From: Streptomyces sp. GS7
GTDB taxonomy: Bacteria > Actinomycetota > Actinomycetes > Streptomycetales > Streptomycetaceae
Direction: 5' to 3'
DNA: 64,000 bases
NCBI RefSeq assembly: GCF_009834125.1
Contig: NZ_CP047146.1
Span: 2,101,501 to 2,165,500 of the forward strand
Below the pieces are notes generated by a model. It ran no database searches and was not told the DNA's origin. It was given only the letters and a program-made list of their open reading frames with translations. How positions within the stretch are numbered: position 1 is the stretch's first letter; every line of letters starts with the position of its first letter. Shown here in pieces: positions 3,766 through 16,653 of this stretch. A program made the position numbers and the translations under genes.

Positions 3766-4392
3766 CTAGGCGCTTGGCACGTACTTGTACCCGACCCGCC
3801 GCACCGTCACGATCGACGACCGGTGCTCGGCGCCCAGCTTCCGCCGCAGCCGGGCGACATGGACGTCGACGGTGCGCCCGTCGCCGACATGCCCGTACCC
3901 CCACACCGTGGTCACCAGCTGGTCGCGGGTGTGCACCCGGTGCGGATGCGCGACCAGATGGGCCAGCAGCTCGAATTCGAGGTACGTCAGGTCCAGTTGC
4001 CGGCCCCGGACCTGCGCGGTCCGCCGCTCGGGGTCGATCCGTACGGTCTCGTCGCCGGTCCACCCCGGCGGTGCGGGGTCGGCGGGCGGCTGTGGGGCGG
4101 GGGCCGCCTCGGCCGGGACGAGGACGAGGTAGCCGACCATCGGCGGCTGGCCGGGCAGCGCGGGCAGGCTGTGTTCCGGCGCCGGGAGCCAGGTGGCGCC
4201 GGAGTTCAGCAGCTCGGCGACCTGCTGCGCACTGTGGCGCGGCGCCGCGGCACCCGGGGCGGCGGCCGGGCGGGCGGTGCTCCCGGCGGTGGCTTCGTCG
4301 GAGGGCACCGCGCGCAGCCGGTGGCGCTGGTGCGGCGGGTGCGGAACGGCGGCCGTGGCGGAACCGGCGGGAACGGTACGGAGATTCGTCAT
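3766..4392 (-). CDS. Orphan OmpR/PhoB-type winged-helix regulator without receiver domain
   Basis: A 208-residue protein whose C-terminal ~95 residues form a complete trans_reg_C domain (LTYLEFELLAHLVAHPHRVH, then TVDVHVARLRRKLG and VRRVGYKYVP). The first ~110 residues are Ala/Pro-rich and contain no phospho-acceptor receiver domain. No histidine kinase is next to it. It probably binds DNA but cannot be switched by classical phosphorelay. The 3' end faces dedA with 22 bases between. Upstream on the same strand are a possible 34-codon leader ORF and a hairpin (4456-4474). Confidence 0.8.
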   Translation of the reverse strand: MTNLRTVPAGSATAAVPHPPHQRHRLRAVPSDEATAGSTARPAAAPGAAAPRHSAQQVAELLNSGATWLPAPEHSLPALPGQPPMVGYLVLVPAEAAPAPQPPADPAPPGWTGDETVRIDPERRTAQVRGRQLDLTYLEFELLAHLVAHPHRVHTRDQLVTTVWGYGHVGDGRTVDVHVARLRRKLGAEHRSSIVTVRRVGYKYVPSA

Positions 4393-4638: not shown

Positions 4639-5385
4639 TCACACCACCTCCGCGGTGACGCGATCCCGCCGCACGCCGGCCGCACCACCCGCGGGACCGG
4701 CCAGGTCCCGCACCCGACTGCCCTTCCCCGCACCGGAGTTGCCCCTCAGGGCCGCCCCGAGGCGCCGTGCGCGGTGGCCGAAATCCGCCCCCGCGATCCC
4801 GGTGGCGCCCATCGCCATCCCGAGCGCCAGCGCCGCCAGATGCCCCGCGTCCGTGAACGTCCGGCCGCGGCGGACCACCGGCACCGCGGCCGGCACCAGC
4901 AGTGCGCCGACCGCCGCCAGCCGCGCGCCCCGGTGCGGGACCGTCGCCGCGAGGGCGCCGAGCGTGGCACAGAAGCCGTAGCTCGCCCCGACGTCGACGG
5001 CCCGCGCGGTGCCGCCGGAGCAGGAGCCCCGCCGGGCGCGCAGGCCCGCGTACACCAGCAGGCTGGCGCCGACGTGCCCGGCCGCGAACACCCCCGCGGC
5101 GCGCCCGGCGCCCCAACGGACCTCGGCCGTACCGAGGGTGGCCAGCAGCGCCGCGCCGTACACCGCCGGCAGCGGCTCCTCCACGAACGCCGCGCTGGTG
5201 GCGAGGGTGCCCCACCGGCCGGCCCGCAGGTTGGCGACATTGGTGGAGTGCGCGCGCAGCAGCTCCGCACGCCGCCGTCCCGGCAGCCGGCCGGTGGCAT
5301 ACGCCCCGAGCTGCACCACCCCCACATACAGCGGTGCCGCCCACGGCAGCGCCCCGCGCCGCACCGCTCGCCCCCGCGTCCCCAC
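4639..5385 (-). CDS. Rhomboid-like integral membrane protein
   Basis: A 248-residue protein with about six hydrophobic segments. The GTG at 5385 follows GGAGGG by 6 bases. A HSTNVANL segment (residues 46-53) precedes the membrane core. GASYG at residues 133-137 and AGHLAALALG with His182 match the Ser/His dyad pattern of rhomboid intramembrane proteases (GxSx and a later His). This makes it a candidate protease, although many actinobacterial rhomboid-like proteins are unproven. It lies 19 bases downstream of the DUF6891 gene on the same strand and may be co-transcribed with it. Confidence 0.65.
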   Translation of the reverse strand: MGTRGRAVRRGALPWAAPLYVGVVQLGAYATGRLPGRRRAELLRAHSTNVANLRAGRWGTLATSAAFVEEPLPAVYGAALLATLGTAEVRWGAGRAAGVFAAGHVGASLLVYAGLRARRGSCSGGTARAVDVGASYGFCATLGALAATVPHRGARLAAVGALLVPAAVPVVRRGRTFTDAGHLAALALGMAMGATGIAGADFGHRARRLGAALRGNSGAGKGSRVRDLAGPAGGAAGVRRDRVTAEVV

Positions 5386-6462: not shown

Positions 6463-7482
6463 TCACACCTGCTCGCGGCGCTCCAGCTCCGTGCAGCAGG
6501 TGTCCACGATCAGCCGCGTCACCACGTAGGGGTCCACGTTCGCGTTCGGCCGCCGGTCCTCGATGTAGCCCTTCTTCTCGACCTCGACCTGCCACGGGAT
6601 GCGCACCGAGGCGCCGCGGTCGGAGGGGCCGTAGGAGTACTGGTCCCAGGGGGCGGTCTCGTGGGCGCCGGTCAGCCGCTCCTCGATACCGGTGCCGTAC
6701 TCGCGGACGTGCTCCAGCGGCTTGCCGTCCGCGCCCAGCGCCTCGCAGGCGGTGATGATCGCGTCGTAGCCCTCGCGCATCGCGCGGGTGGAGAAGTTGG
6801 TGTGCGCGCCCGCGCCGTTCCAGTCGCCCCGGGCCGGCTTGGCGTCCAGCGACGCGGAGACGCCGAACTCCTCGGCCGTACGGTGCAGCAGCCAGCGCGC
6901 CACCCACATGTGGTCCGCGACCTCCAGCGGCGGCAGCGCGCCCACCTGGAACTCCCACTGGCCGGGCATGACCTCGGCGTTGATGCCGGACAGGCCGAGG
7001 CCGGCCGCCAGGCACAGGTCGAGGTGCTTCTCGACGATCTCCCGGCCGAAGATCTCGCCGGCGCCGACACCGCAGTAGTAGCCGCCCTGCGGGGCCGGGA
7101 AGCCGCCCTCGGGGAAGCCCAGCGGGCGCTCGCCCTTGAGGAAGGTGTACTCCTGCTCGATGCCGAAGATCGGCTCCTGCGCGGCGAACCGCTCCGCCAC
7201 CGGGCGCAGCAGGGCCCGGGTGTTGGAGGAGTGCGGCGTGAGGTCGGTGTTCAGCACCTCGCACAGCACCAGCAGGTGGTCACCGCCGCGGATCGGGTCC
7301 GGGCAGCTGAACACCGGCTCCAGCACGAGGTCCGAAGAGTGGCCTTCGGCCTGATTGGTGCTGGACCCGTCGAACCCCCACCGCGGGAGCGTGGAACCGT
7401 CCGCCAGGATCTTGGTCTTGGAACGGAGCTTGGCGGTCGGCTGGGTGCCGTCGATCCAGATGTACTCGGCCTTGATGGTCAC
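6463..7482 (-). CDS. glnII: Glutamine synthetase type II (eukaryotic-like)
   Basis: A 339-residue GSII that makes glutamine from glutamate, ammonia and ATP. Recognisable parts are the start IKAEYIWIDGTQPTAKLRSK, WGFDGSSTNQAEG, GIEQEYTF, the nucleotide/metal segment PGQWEFQVG and GDWNGAGAHTNFST. It is much shorter than GSI and lacks the adenylylation tyrosine loop. The GTG at 7482 follows GAGGA. A four-part GlnR-like box lies at 7550-7587, pointing to nitrogen-dependent transcription together with glnA. Streptomycetes typically carry both enzymes. Confidence 0.95.
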   Translation of the reverse strand: MTIKAEYIWIDGTQPTAKLRSKTKILADGSTLPRWGFDGSSTNQAEGHSSDLVLEPVFSCPDPIRGGDHLLVLCEVLNTDLTPHSSNTRALLRPVAERFAAQEPIFGIEQEYTFLKGERPLGFPEGGFPAPQGGYYCGVGAGEIFGREIVEKHLDLCLAAGLGLSGINAEVMPGQWEFQVGALPPLEVADHMWVARWLLHRTAEEFGVSASLDAKPARGDWNGAGAHTNFSTRAMREGYDAIITACEALGADGKPLEHVREYGTGIEERLTGAHETAPWDQYSYGPSDRGASVRIPWQVEVEKKGYIEDRRPNANVDPYVVTRLIVDTCCTELERREQV

Positions 7483-10016: not shown

Positions 10017-10191
10017 TAGGTGTCCACCCCGGCCCCACGGCCGCCCTCGGGCGGCGGCGCAGGGGCGGCGGTGCGGCCGGTCAGCCCTCCGGCGGTGCGG
10101 CGATGCGGAGTCCGGGACTCCACGGAAGGAAGGACGACGAGGAAGCGCGGAATCCGACACCGCGGCCCGCGCCGTGGATTACCTTTCCCCC

Positions 10192-12942
10192 GTGGACCAG
10201 TTGATCTCCTCAGACCCGACGCACATAGGCCCGTACCGCCTGATCGCCCGCCTGGGCGCCGGCGGTATGGGCCTGGTCTATCTGGGCCGTTCCGAGGCCG
10301 GGCGGACCGTCGCGGTGAAGGTCGTCCAGGCCGAGCACGCACAACACCCGGAGTTCCGCGGGCGCTTCGCCCGTGAGGTGGCGGCCGCGCGGAAGGTGGG
10401 CGGTTCCTGGACGGCGGCCGTTCTCGACGCCGACACCGAGGCCGCCGTGCCCTGGGTGGCGACCCAGTACATCCCGGGGCCCGACCTGACCACGGTGGTG
10501 GCGAACGACTTCGGGCCGCTGCCCGACAACTCCGTGCGGGTGCTGGCCAACCGCCTCGCCCTGGCCCTGCAGGCGGTGCACGGGGCGGGCCTGATCCACC
10601 GGGACCTCAAGCCGTCCAACGTGCTGGTGACGGTGGACGGGCCGCGCGTGATCGACTTCGGTATCGCGCGGGCCATGGACAGCCTCGCCGGGGACAGCCT
10701 GCACACCCGCACCGGCATGCTGATCGGTTCCCCCGGTTTCATGTCGCCCGAGCAGGTGCGCGGTCTCGAACTCACCCCCGCCAGCGACGTGTTCTGCCTG
10801 GGCGCCGTGCTCGTCTACGCCGCCACCGGACGCCTGCTCTTCGGCGCCGCGGAGACCGGGCTGAACGCCCACCTCTTCCGGGTCGCCGAGGAGGAGCCGA
10901 ACCTGACCGGCGTACCGGAGCCGCTGCTCGACCTCGTCCGCCAGTGCCTCGACAAGAACCCGGCCGAGCGGCCCACCCTCCAGCAGGTCGCCGCCCGCAC
11001 GGCGGCCGACGCGCACGGGGACGCGGACACGGACGCGGACGGGGAATGGCTGCCGGGCGCCGTCCTGGCCCAACTCGGCCGTCACGCGGCGAAGTTGCTG
11101 GACTTCGCCCCCGAGACGACCGCCGGCACACCCGGTTCCGCGCCCGCCGACGCGCCGACGCCCGTCGCGGACCCGCGCATCCCCTCCGCGCAGCCACAGC
11201 CGCAGCCGACGGCACCCCCGCCGCCCGCGTACGCGCCCACCGCCCCGGCGCACGCCGTCCCCCCGCAGGGATTCGGACCGCCCCCGGGCATGGCCACCCC
11301 CACCTGGTCCGCGGCTCCGCCCGCACCGCCCGCGGCCTGGTCCCCACCGCCCGCGGCCTGGTCCCCACCGCCCGCGGGTTGGTCCCCACCGCCCGCCCAG
11401 GACTCGTCGGTCCCGCACCGTATGCGCTGGTGGGGCCTGGCGGTGGCCGCCCTCGTGCAGCTGATCGTGCTGCTCGACGCCACGTCCCTGCACATGGCGA
11501 TGCCGGCGATCATGGCTGATCTGCACCTCCGCGCCACCGACCTGAAGTGGCTGTTCGCCGGCTATGAACTGGCCTTCGGCGGGCTGCTGCTGCTCGGTGG
11601 GCACCTCGCGGACCTGGTGGGCCGCAAACGGATGCTGGTCATCGGCCTGTCCGGTTTCGCGGTGGCCGCCGCGTTCGGCGGCCTGGCCGTCTCCTCCGGC
11701 ATGCTGGTCGCGGCCCGCGCCCTGCAAGGCGTCTTCGCCGCGCTGCTGTCGCCGGCCGCACTGGCCCTGGTGGCGGCCGACTTCCCCGAGCCGAAGGCCC
11801 GCGGCAGGGCCTTCGGGATCTACGCCGCGATCGCCGTCGGCGGCTCGTCGGTGGGCCTGTTCGCCGGCGGCTGGCTGCTGGTGTCCCTGAGCTGGCGCTG
11901 GTGCCTGTTCGCCGACGTCCCCCTCGCCCTGATCGCCGTGATCGGCGCGGCCACCCTGGTCCACGACCGCCCCGTCCACACCGGCCCCCGCTTCGACGCC
12001 CCCGGCCTGCTGCTCGGCTCCGGCGGCATCGCCGCCCTCATCTACGGCTTCCAGCAGACGGGTTCGCGCGGCTGGACCGACCTCCTGGTGCTGGCGCTGC
12101 TCGCGCTCGGCACCGCCCTGCTGACCGCCTTCTTCTGGTGGCAGACCAGCGCGGCCACCGCGCTCCTGCCCCCGTACGCCATCAGGGACCGCGCCCGCGC
12201 CGGCTCCTTCGTCACACTCTTCCTGGCCGGCGTCGGCACGCTCGCCCTCTTCCCGACCCTGACGGGGTACCTGCAGAACATCCGCGGCTACTCCCCGAGC
12301 CAGGCCGCCGTGGCGATCCTGCCCACGGCCGTCGCCATCGTCATCGGCTCCACCCAGATCTCCGCCCGCCTGCTGCACCGCACCGCACCGCGCAACCTGA
12401 TCGTGCCGGGCCTGCTGCTCACCGCGCTCGGTCTGGCGCTCCTGTCCCTCCTCACGCCCGACAGCGGGTACGCCACCCTGCCCCTGCCGGGCATGCTCCT
12501 CACCGGCCTCGGCCTCGGCATGGCCCTGATGCCGCTCCTCTCCCTCGCCACGGCCGGCCTCGCCGCGCAGGACTCCGGCGGGGGCGCGGCGGTGACCAGC
12601 ACGGCCAACCAGGTCGGCGGGGCGCTCGGCACCGCGCTGTTCGGCAGCGTCCTGTCCTCGGCCATCGCCGCCCGCATGGAACGGGTACCCGGCCTCGGGC
12701 AGGGCTTCGCCGACGCGGCCCGGAACGGCCGGATCCTCAACCCGCGAGGAGTGCCACCACAGCTGGCGGCACACCTCACCAGGGCAACGCTGGGCGGCTA
12801 CACCACCACCCTGTGGTGCTCGGTCGGCATCACCCTCCTCGCCGGCCTGGCCGCCGCCCTCCTCATCAGGTCCACCGCCCCCACGCTCCCCCAACTCCCC
12901 GAACCACCCCTCCCGCCCTACGCCCAGCCGCCCACCCACTGA
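10192..12942 (+). CDS. Fusion of Ser/Thr protein kinase and 14-TM MFS (DHA2-type) transporter
   Basis: A 916-residue continuous frame. Residues 1-270 are a full Hanks-type kinase: GAGGMGLVYLG loop, VAVK with Lys43, HRDLKPSN with Asp138, DFG at 155-157 and SPEQ. Residues ~320-405 are a Pro/Ala-rich linker with a 7-residue repeat. From ~411 an EmrB/QacA-like exporter follows, with LDATSLHMAMPAI, motif A as GGHLADLVGRKRM and about 14 membrane segments. The GTG at 10192 gives the usual kinase start (MDQLISSDPTHIGPYRL); a GTG at 10174 is possible. There is no clear ribosome site, so it may be leaderless. The kinase would be cytosolic and could phosphorylate its own transporter or linker. Substrate is unknown. 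Confidence 0.88.
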   Translation: MDQLISSDPTHIGPYRLIARLGAGGMGLVYLGRSEAGRTVAVKVVQAEHAQHPEFRGRFAREVAAARKVGGSWTAAVLDADTEAAVPWVATQYIPGPDLTTVVANDFGPLPDNSVRVLANRLALALQAVHGAGLIHRDLKPSNVLVTVDGPRVIDFGIARAMDSLAGDSLHTRTGMLIGSPGFMSPEQVRGLELTPASDVFCLGAVLVYAATGRLLFGAAETGLNAHLFRVAEEEPNLTGVPEPLLDLVRQCLDKNPAERPTLQQVAARTAADAHGDADTDADGEWLPGAVLAQLGRHAAKLLDFAPETTAGTPGSAPADAPTPVADPRIPSAQPQPQPTAPPPPAYAPTAPAHAVPPQGFGPPPGMATPTWSAAPPAPPAAWSPPPAAWSPPPAGWSPPPAQDSSVPHRMRWWGLAVAALVQLIVLLDATSLHMAMPAIMADLHLRATDLKWLFAGYELAFGGLLLLGGHLADLVGRKRMLVIGLSGFAVAAAFGGLAVSSGMLVAARALQGVFAALLSPAALALVAADFPEPKARGRAFGIYAAIAVGGSSVGLFAGGWLLVSLSWRWCLFADVPLALIAVIGAATLVHDRPVHTGPRFDAPGLLLGSGGIAALIYGFQQTGSRGWTDLLVLALLALGTALLTAFFWWQTSAATALLPPYAIRDRARAGSFVTLFLAGVGTLALFPTLTGYLQNIRGYSPSQAAVAILPTAVAIVIGSTQISARLLHRTAPRNLIVPGLLLTALGLALLSLLTPDSGYATLPLPGMLLTGLGLGMALMPLLSLATAGLAAQDSGGGAAVTSTANQVGGALGTALFGSVLSSAIAARMERVPGLGQGFADAARNGRILNPRGVPPQLAAHLTRATLGGYTTTLWCSVGITLLAGLAAALLIRSTAPTLPQLPEPPLPPYAQPPTH
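11326..11388 (+). repeat. Three 21-bp tandem repeats in the kinase-MFS linker
   Basis: Three in-frame copies of a 21-bp unit each encode seven residues ending in W-S-P (PPAAWSP type). They sit in the linker between kinase and transporter, so copy changes would alter linker length without breaking the frame. Confidence 0.8.
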
Positions 12943-15663: not shown

Positions 15664-16035
15664 GGCGTTCTCCCAGGTGGCTCTTCCGCTCACTCTGCGC
15701 GTATAGCCCCTGACCTGGGGAAATGACGAAGAAGGTCAACGTACCTCGGCCCCCGTCCCGACCTGGTGTCGATGGCGGGGGCTGTGTTGTGCCGGAGGGG
15801 TAGCCGCGTGGATGCCTATCGGTTGCCCTGAGGACGCGCCAAGAAGTCATGAGCGCATCAATGTCGCCTCGGTGGTCGATGGTTGCAAGTCGAACCAATC
15901 TCCGAATTTTCTCTACGCCAGCCGAGTCAAGATCACCGAATCCGCGAATGTGGATGGTCGGGAAGTGTGAGAACTACCCAATGCGGAGTCGGCGTCTCAG
16001 CCGATCCGATCACCTCGACTACTAGGGAGGTTTCG
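15664..16035. other. Left non-coding part of the insertion
   Basis: I see no convincing gene. The GC is lower than in flanking genes. A GGGAGG ribosome site for the hemopexin-like gene lies at its right end, and the promoter for that gene must be within it. Confidence 0.45.
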
Positions 16036-16653
16036 ATGGCCAGCAAGGTCGACGCGCTCGGCTGGGAGAACTGGGAGCGCATGTGGTTCTTCGTCGAGCA
16101 GGAATGCATCTTCTATAACGGCAAGCAGGGGACTGTCCGGGACCGCAAGAAGATCGGAGACATGTTCACTGCGATTCCTCAGTCGTTCCAGAACGGCATC
16201 GATGCCTTCGGGTTCGAGAACTGGGAGCGCCTGTGGTTCTTCAAGGGTGACCAGTACTGCTTCTACAACGCCAAGGCGCAGGAGGTTCGCGAGTCACGGA
16301 AGATCAAGGACCAGTTCACCAGGCTGCCGGACGACTTCAAGAAGGGGGTCGATGCGCTCGGGTGGGAGAGCTGGGAGCGTATGTGGTTTGTCAAGGGCGA
16401 GAGGATCGTGTTCTACAACGCCAAGGACAATGAGGTTCGGTCGGAGAATCTGCTGAAGCAGCAGTTCACCAAGCTTCCGCCCGCCTTCCAGAAGGGCCTG
16501 GACGCCTTCGGGTTCGAGAACTGGGAGCGCCTGTGGATGTTCAAGGGCGAGCAGTACTGCTTCTACAACGCCAAGGCGCAGGAAATCCGCGAGGTCAGGG
16601 ACATCAAGGCCCAGTTCCCCGGAGTACTGGAGCCGCAACCGTATATGGCGTGA
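16036..16653 (+). CDS. Four-repeat hemopexin-like protein
   Basis: The ATG at 16036 follows GGGAGG by 5 bases. The 205-residue product is almost entirely four 50-residue repeats, at residues 5-54, 55-104, 105-154 and 155-205. Each begins with a DA pair, then WERLWFFKG-type and YNAK-type segments, an Ile/Leu and a final F..LP. This matches the hemopexin repeat, whose four copies close a four-bladed propeller with the DA pairs lining the central tunnel. Repeats 1/3 and 2/4 pair, and 2 and 4 are nearly identical in DNA, so a two-repeat unit was duplicated recently. No signal peptide, so probably cytosolic. The ligand is unknown. Confidence 0.75.
   Translation: MASKVDALGWENWERMWFFVEQECIFYNGKQGTVRDRKKIGDMFTAIPQSFQNGIDAFGFENWERLWFFKGDQYCFYNAKAQEVRESRKIKDQFTRLPDDFKKGVDALGWESWERMWFVKGERIVFYNAKDNEVRSENLLKQQFTKLPPAFQKGLDAFGFENWERLWMFKGEQYCFYNAKAQEIREVRDIKAQFPGVLEPQPYMA

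Follow-up and report, generated by a model that had tools for sequence, protein, structure and literature searches.

What does a Ser/Thr kinase do when it shares one polypeptide chain with the fold of a drug exporter, and which of the two halves serves the other? The question is raised by a gene of Streptomyces sp. GS7 at positions 10192..12942 (plus strand, as are all features of the gene given below) of the window, our term for the whole stretch of 64,000 nucleotides that was analysed (contig NZ_CP047146.1, 2,101,501 to 2,165,500). Its product of 916 amino acids joins a Hanks-type Ser/Thr kinase to a DHA2-type carrier of the major facilitator superfamily (MFS), and an earlier note on this DNA had proposed a transporter gated by its own kinase domain. 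We favour, with roughly even confidence, an AfsK-type membrane receptor kinase that holds a DHA2-type MFS fold in its sensor slot, with possible export in the clade of the window protein. The ground for this preference is that among the relatives an intact kinase stays constant and the MFS half is kept as a fold, constrained inside and freer outside, even where the signatures of export are missing. Such a pattern would be expected of a sensor domain, and the comparison of sequences favours control of the kinase by the MFS half rather than the reverse.

Kinase and MFS carrier fold in a single chain

The reading frame is free of stops from a GTG at 10174 or a GTG at 10192 to the stop at 12942. 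We chose the start at 10192, with the one at 10174 as an upstream alternative, because it agrees with MDQLI, the most frequent N-terminus among the relatives. No clear Shine-Dalgarno stretch precedes either GTG or the internal candidate start at 11422, so that this signal cannot decide between the three, and a scan for promoters and terminators detected nothing that resembles a promoter and a single weak hairpin, no more than chance allows (0.4 expected). The homologue set consists of the best 120 of 7913 matches, ranked by whole-protein score, which favours fusions. Apart from the entry of the window protein itself, all 119 have the fused architecture, with 819-903 amino acids, and come from Streptomyces wherever they are named, and only 19 of them have Met at the position of 11422. 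The earlier note had counted homologues encoded as two genes with starts near 11422 as evidence against its view of one open frame in which no frameshift or stop is needed; the listed relatives are all fused, and the single-chain fusion of kinase and MFS is real. Nothing was found in favour of an artefact of annotation or assembly that merged two genes. We regard this explanation as practically excluded by the fused relatives and the poorly conserved internal Met; long stop-free fusion frames in 25 of 29 Streptomyces loci also speak against it. A plasmid match (H57) considered as a split-gene ancestor, in which the MFS gene precedes the kinase gene at a distance of about 0.9 kb, was set aside.

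The fusion is genuine, but the premise of the earlier note that kinases and MFS transporters are normally separate overstated its oddity, as the architecture of this recurrent Streptomyces family is already on record. NCBI gives the name 'bifunctional serine/threonine protein kinase/MFS transporter' to P0028, P0073, P0078, P0088 and others, direct relatives that are likened here by a database name only, and calls most remaining named relatives 'MDR family MFS transporter' or 'MFS transporter'. TCDB holds family 2.A.1.34, 'Sensor Kinase-MFS Fusion' (SK-MFS), for which Table 7 of a 2013 comparative paper gives one Streptomyces coelicolor member, none in Myxococcus, and the substrate as 'unknown' (PMC3924187). 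Judged by architecture alone, with kinase and MFS carrier fused into one polypeptide, the window protein would belong to this family. Among the titles and opening abstract lines listed by full-text literature searches, with subscription literature mostly outside their coverage, none pointed to functional work on a fusion of Ser/Thr kinase and MFS, and literature searches gave no published account of a constant kinase with a variable MFS half.

The kinase domain spans residues 15-267 (10234..10992; Pkinase PF00069, E 3e-37, 128.9 bits against a cut-off of 31.7) and has the sequence hallmarks of the Hanks type. K43 (the Lys of VAVK), E62, H136-R137-D138, N143 and D155-F156-G157 are unchanged in 119 of 119 relatives; HRDLKPSN and DFG are invariant as a whole, and GAGGMG nearly so (one row is gapped across four columns). 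The complete set of catalytic motifs read by the earlier note is thus borne out, together with the conservation it had proposed to check. PknB is the closest solved kinase structure (E 2e-33), and T172 and T174 in the activation loop (10705..10713), Thr at both positions in every relative, align with the T-Q-T of PknB, whose threonines we take to be phosphosites; both are candidate autophosphorylation sites. PknB and PknA share the kinase domain with the window protein; in place of a carrier fold they have a single transmembrane helix and, in PknB, an extracellular domain.

On the kinase side, the best profile is that of AfsK (NF053615), whose positions 1-336 of 809 match residues 1-341 with 296.6 bits, short of the whole-protein cut-off of 1300. 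This match includes a juxta-kinase element, EWLP...VLAQLGRHA...LLD, at residues 285-304 (11044..11103). What differs from AfsK is the part behind it: the C-terminal PQQ repeats described for AfsK (PMC1262709) are replaced by the MFS domain. A plasmid of Streptomyces anulatus encodes another AfsK-type kinase (P0243; L060:3001-4845), 62.5% identical over residues 1-304, in which an apparent single hydrophobic segment and a C-terminal part without a Pfam match follow. Since a different part occupies the same slot there, kinases of this type can exchange what follows them. Other kinases lie close to fusion genes elsewhere: a divergent one (49% over 292 amino acids) directly beside the fusion at L017:5992-7875, and one with WD40-type repeats about 4 kb from it at L016:1647-3701.

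The DHA2-type MFS domain covers residues 412-892 (11425..12867), with a Pfam MFS_1 match (PF07690) at 420-814 (E 1.9e-44, 152.4 bits against a cut-off of 33.4). An AlphaFold2 model built from 68 aligned fusions (mean predicted local distance difference test score, pLDDT, 73.6; predicted template modelling score 0.60) predicts 14 long MFS helices, with 10-residue blocks mostly at pLDDT 84-98. The kinase is poorly modelled, which we attribute to the shallow alignment, and the model does not give its placement relative to the MFS half. The nearest solved carriers are EfpA (8ufd, TM-score 0.89 by target, 29% identity), QacA, NorC and EmrB; EfpA and QacA share the DHA2 fold and are stand-alone exporters without a kinase. 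With 14 helices, the MFS fold, the acidic residue in the first transmembrane helix (TM1) and the motif B Arg in TM4, the window protein has the features of DHA2 carriers, and it scores below the threshold of the EmrB subfamily (TIGR00711, 206.5 against 230.2). The full set of about 14 helices and the motif A that the earlier note had described are recovered by the model and the motif residues. Motif A (GGHLADLVGRKR, 11596..11631) keeps G470, D474 and G477 in 119 of 119 relatives and has His at its third position. This H471 (11602-11604) is His in 110 of the 119 fusions, as opposed to a basic Arg or Lys in 13 of 13 stand-alone relatives, and is a possible signature of the fused family.

A constant kinase and a variable MFS half

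The two halves have diverged to very different extents. Identity of the relatives to the window protein is 84-96% in the kinase and just 48-84% in the MFS half. Alignments were made domain by domain. For comparison, 16 diverse stand-alone plasmid relatives of the MFS half were hand-picked from 40 listed matches, four of them with self-called frames (L044, L048, L049 and L050); of these, L050 was retained and the other three were left out of the comparisons of conservation by side and of residue groups, which leaves 13 stand-alone relatives. In a first tree the self-called L044 and L048 were placed inside the fusions on long branches. The final tree and the parsimony reconstruction use the 12 annotated stand-alone relatives only, and once self-called frames are left out, all 120 fusions group together as a single clade with support 0.90. 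Haloarchaeal matches (L030-L034) align in the kinase only, at 26-30%.

Two residues important for proton-coupled export are present in the window protein, the acid in TM1 as D429 (11476..11478) and the Arg of motif B in TM4 as R509 (11716..11718). Among the other 119 fusions, position 429 is Asp in 47 and Glu in 7, and position 509 is Arg in 66. Counting the window protein, 54 of the 120 fusions have both an acid at 429 and R509, 52 have neither and 14 are mixed. Stand-alone carriers differ from this: position 429 is Asp in 15 of the 16 plasmid relatives and Glu in one (L048), position 509 is Arg in 15 with Pro in L044, all 12 annotated ones carry both residues, and so do 119 of 119 members of one stand-alone clade, obtained by a second protein search as a control. 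The kinase is kept equally well in the two groups of fusions, with a mean identity of 0.895 where both residues are present and 0.924 where both are absent. In the tree, 48 of the 52 without them group in one clade (49 with P0049, support 1.0), the other four make up the earliest-branching clade, and the window's clade has both residues. Parsimony makes the root of the fusions non-acidic at 429 and leaves 509 undecided.

Other charged positions of the MFS half differ between these groups as well. At residue 622 (12055-12057) the charge switches between clades: where both export residues are present, 0.65 of the fusions are acidic and 0.04 basic there, and where both are absent 0.88 are basic. 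Similarly, 755 is acidic in 0.87 of the fusions lacking both and 0.41 of those having both, and 828 is basic in 0.90 and 0.39, respectively. The conserved charges at 622, 755 and 828 in the group without export signatures argue against plain decay.

Substitution rates show the same divide within single genes. The ratio of nonsynonymous to synonymous substitution (omega = dN/dS) was estimated after Nei-Gojobori for genes with 94-96% G+C at third codon positions (GC3). Across six close pairs, hand-picked from several lineages (window-L022, L002-L024, L003-L028, L004-L006, L009-L019 and L010-L012), omega is 0.08-0.19 in the kinase and 0.56-0.97 in the MFS half, and the bootstrap ranges of the two halves overlap in none of the pairs. 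Three of them (L004-L006, L009-L019 and L010-L012) are without both export residues, yet their kinase omega is 0.08-0.16. A wider comparison used 26 of 30 sequences (the window and 25 of 29 loci), as L023 leaves its contig and L018, L020 and L026 are shortened or interrupted; in the last three (L018:8001-9956, L020:7770-10094, L026:8001-9545) the fusion frame falls short of the tblastn match through a sequencing error or a broken copy. Over 323 of 325 dependent pairs, filtered by dS, median omega is 0.12 for the kinase, 0.42 for the linker and 0.84 for the MFS half. The genes flanking the fusion have a median of 0.22 in 136 pairs, with a 90th percentile of 0.42 and one pair at 0.82, and five close pairs of stand-alone DHA2 plasmid genes (dS 0.03-0.5, partly dependent) give 0.05-0.34; two further near-identical stand-alone pairs (dS 0.00-0.01; omega 0.59 and 0.27) were too close to be used. 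A GC3 near 95% compresses dS and thereby inflates omega, so that an omega close to 1 does not demonstrate positive selection. The contrast between kinase and MFS within the same gene is the sound part of the rate evidence.

Conservation of the MFS half also differs between the two sides of the membrane. We compared 13 fusions, a greedy diverse subset of the 120, with the 13 stand-alone relatives at matched mean divergence (0.499 and 0.496), taking helix borders from hydropathy, in rough agreement with the AlphaFold2 model. Mean conservation of the cytosolic half is 0.56 in the fusions against 0.48 in the stand-alone carriers, and that of the extracellular half 0.42 against 0.50; 17 of 478 circular shifts of the side mask equalled this contrast. 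The largest losses in the fusions lie in TM1, TM2 and TM13, the gains in cytosolic loops 6-7 and 10-11. Extracellular omega is the higher one in 10 of 11 close pairs of fusions (the exception is L004-L006) and in one of three stand-alone pairs; when the window, L022 and L027 are compared pairwise, the three values are 0.52-0.73 on the cytosolic and 0.85-1.23 on the extracellular side.

Which half controls the other

In the mechanism that would follow from an MFS sensor, the kinase lies in the cytosol ahead of TM1, as the topology suggests, and a small molecule, perhaps an antibiotic, a lipid or a metabolite, would enter or bind the MFS cavity and shift its inward-facing or outward-facing state. 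The constrained cytosolic MFS face, the linker and the EWLP-LLD element would relay this state to the kinase, which might autophosphorylate at T172 and T174 and then phosphorylate other proteins. Within the window's clade, the ligand may still be exported by the MFS half, and flux itself could be the signal; in the two clades without export signatures it would be a sensor only. Sensing without export could be the older state, as the earliest-branching clade is among those without these signatures. Streptomyces makes most known antibiotics, and one may wonder whether the fusions form a receptor-kinase family with a drug-exporter fold as a fast-diversifying receptor, its kinase and cytosolic face fixed and its extracellular half changing at nearly the pace of synonymous sites, through which each lineage senses another compound, for instance the antibiotics of its rivals, by way of one conserved kinase output; we offer this extension tentatively and consider it rather doubtful.

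If the carrier fold is the sensor, the protein would be the counterpart, among Ser/Thr kinases, of CbrA and of Snf3 and Rgt2, the non-transporting sugar sensors of yeast. CbrA and MxtR are alike in principle, as they have the fold of a secondary carrier in the membrane part of a kinase. They differ in that their carrier is of the SSS superfamily, their kinase is a histidine kinase, the order of the domains is opposite, and PAS and STAC domains lie between them, whereas the window protein combines an MFS carrier with a Ser/Thr kinase and is thus not CbrA-like in the strict sense. CbrA also transports histidine (PMC7918813). For most bacterial Ser/Thr receptor kinases the nature of the activating signal is called an outstanding question in the abstract of PMC6069109; an MFS sensor would offer its cavity for a screen of ligands, and the clades that have or lack the export signatures are a natural experiment in which the same kinase occurs with the transport residues present or absent.

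Several points weigh against an MFS sensor. The window copy keeps D429, R509 and motif A, and judged by these residues a working exporter is fully allowed for it. The 52 fusions without the two residues represent few events (the clades of 48 and four), and, as parsimony makes the root non-acidic at 429, the residues may equally well have disappeared early and come back in the window's clade as have been lost more than once. Part of the conservation at 622, 755 and 828 comes from common descent. In CbrA, deletion of the transporter part leaves signalling in place (PMC7918813). Distant stand-alone pairs reach an omega of 0.34-1.12; given this inflation at distance and high GC3, only close pairs count, and positive selection is not claimed. 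The controls are thin, with five stand-alone close pairs and a hydrophobic protein in one of the 136 flanking pairs. The contrast between the sides is not uniform either: among the cytosolic loops, 8-9 and 12-13 have lower conservation in the fusions, as have helices 1-5, 9 and 13, and helices 6-8, 10-12 and 14 have a higher one, and another partition could therefore explain the pattern. Across the 29 Streptomyces loci no conserved operon partner was found as a target of the kinase. Ligand, substrate and phosphorylation of the fusion are all putative.

The main rival turns the direction of control around and is the gating proposed in the earlier note: phosphorylation in cis of the linker or of cytosolic loops would open, close or recycle a proton-coupled exporter of drugs or lipids. 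The window's clade, with Asp in TM1, Arg in TM4 and motif A, fits this, as do the solved folds nearest to the MFS half, all of them efflux pumps (EfpA, QacA, EmrB and NorC). So does a Y-x-P-T-x-P motif at residues 347-352 (11230..11247), a candidate phosphosite or docking motif present in 100 of the 119 linkers, and a higher average constraint on the cytosolic face is what one would expect of surfaces that are phosphorylated or used for docking. If the kinase served its exporter alone, it should, however, decay together with it, and the 52 of 120 fusions without both hallmark residues, whose kinase is as conserved as elsewhere, therefore count against gating, as does an MFS omega that is higher in the close pairs of fusions than in the five close pairs of stand-alone carriers. 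What stands of the proposal is that gating is possible for the window copy and its clade, where an MFS sensor does not displace it; for the family as a whole it fits poorly, and overall we think it unlikely, if well worth keeping in view.

Two further explanations concern the role of the MFS half. If it were a strict flux sensor, or transceptor, it would export and signal in all members, with the missing residues replaced by other solutions for coupling. The two residues in the window's clade are compatible with this, and so are the conserved basic 622 and the more frequent charges at 755 and 828 in the fusions that lack them; CbrA sets a precedent of transporter and kinase in one chain with measured transport (PMC7918813). 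The group without the export residues has, however, no new acidic column in TM1 in place of D429, and the many replacements of R509 (S, N, H, G, Y, D and others) look like a relaxed need, so that we consider flux sensing throughout the family improbable. Slightly less probable still is that the MFS half is a remnant in decay, with no role but to tether the kinase to the membrane. The high MFS omega of the close pairs would suit such a passive anchor, as would the shortened or interrupted frames of L018, L020 and L026 and a plasmid relative of 562 amino acids with the kinase and roughly the first half of the MFS. Against it stand the long MFS part of the 119 listed relatives, the invariant Asp and Gly of motif A, a cytosolic half on average more conserved than in stand-alone exporters, and the basic 622 kept where the export residues are absent. 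The plasmid relative, from Streptomyces sp. NBC_00212 (L059:5001-6689), has an intact kinase and an MFS_1 match that stops at profile position 175 of 347; it is either a truncated copy or a half-carrier kinase.

Linker and neighbouring genes

Between the juxta-kinase element and the MFS domain runs a disordered linker rich in Pro and Ala (11104..11421), with a predicted pLDDT below 50 over residues 275-404. The stretch from the end of the kinase to the MFS half is 79-123 amino acids long in the 119 relatives and, by a near-identical cut, 135 in the window protein. The conservation that the earlier note had suggested looking for holds for individual motifs: EWLP is kept in 119, VLAQLGRHA in 109 and [AG].LLD in 118 of the 119 relatives, the Y-x-P-T-x-P motif is likewise widespread, and its P349 is unchanged in all 68 aligned sequences; the rest of the linker varies in length and sequence. 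By eye, no Y-x-P-T-x-P motif is visible in P0243, the plasmid kinase with the different C-terminal part. The tandem repeats noted earlier in the Pro-rich linker are indeed there, as 3.5 copies of a 21-base-pair unit (11324..11396) that encode approximate WSPPPAA units; absent from seven other linkers compared, they look like a local feature of the window copy.

The fusion gene lies between a gene for an acyl-CoA ligase (PF00501) and a glutamine synthetase gene, read from the sequence as glnA. Both flanks are common to the window and Streptomyces noursei (L022), and at least one neighbour is shared by 6 of the 29 Streptomyces loci (L002, L020, L022, L024, L025 and L027); in other lineages the gene lies elsewhere, and it looks like an independent unit. 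Farther out in the window, a glutamine-synthetase-like gene (6463-7482) has nearby a gene for a protein with a Trans_reg_C DNA-binding domain as its sole Pfam match (3766-4392) and one for a rhomboid-like membrane protein (4639-5385). On the other side of the fusion, 15883-16653 encodes a protein with four internal repeats of about 50 amino acids of the FGFENWERLWFFKGDQYCFYNAK type.

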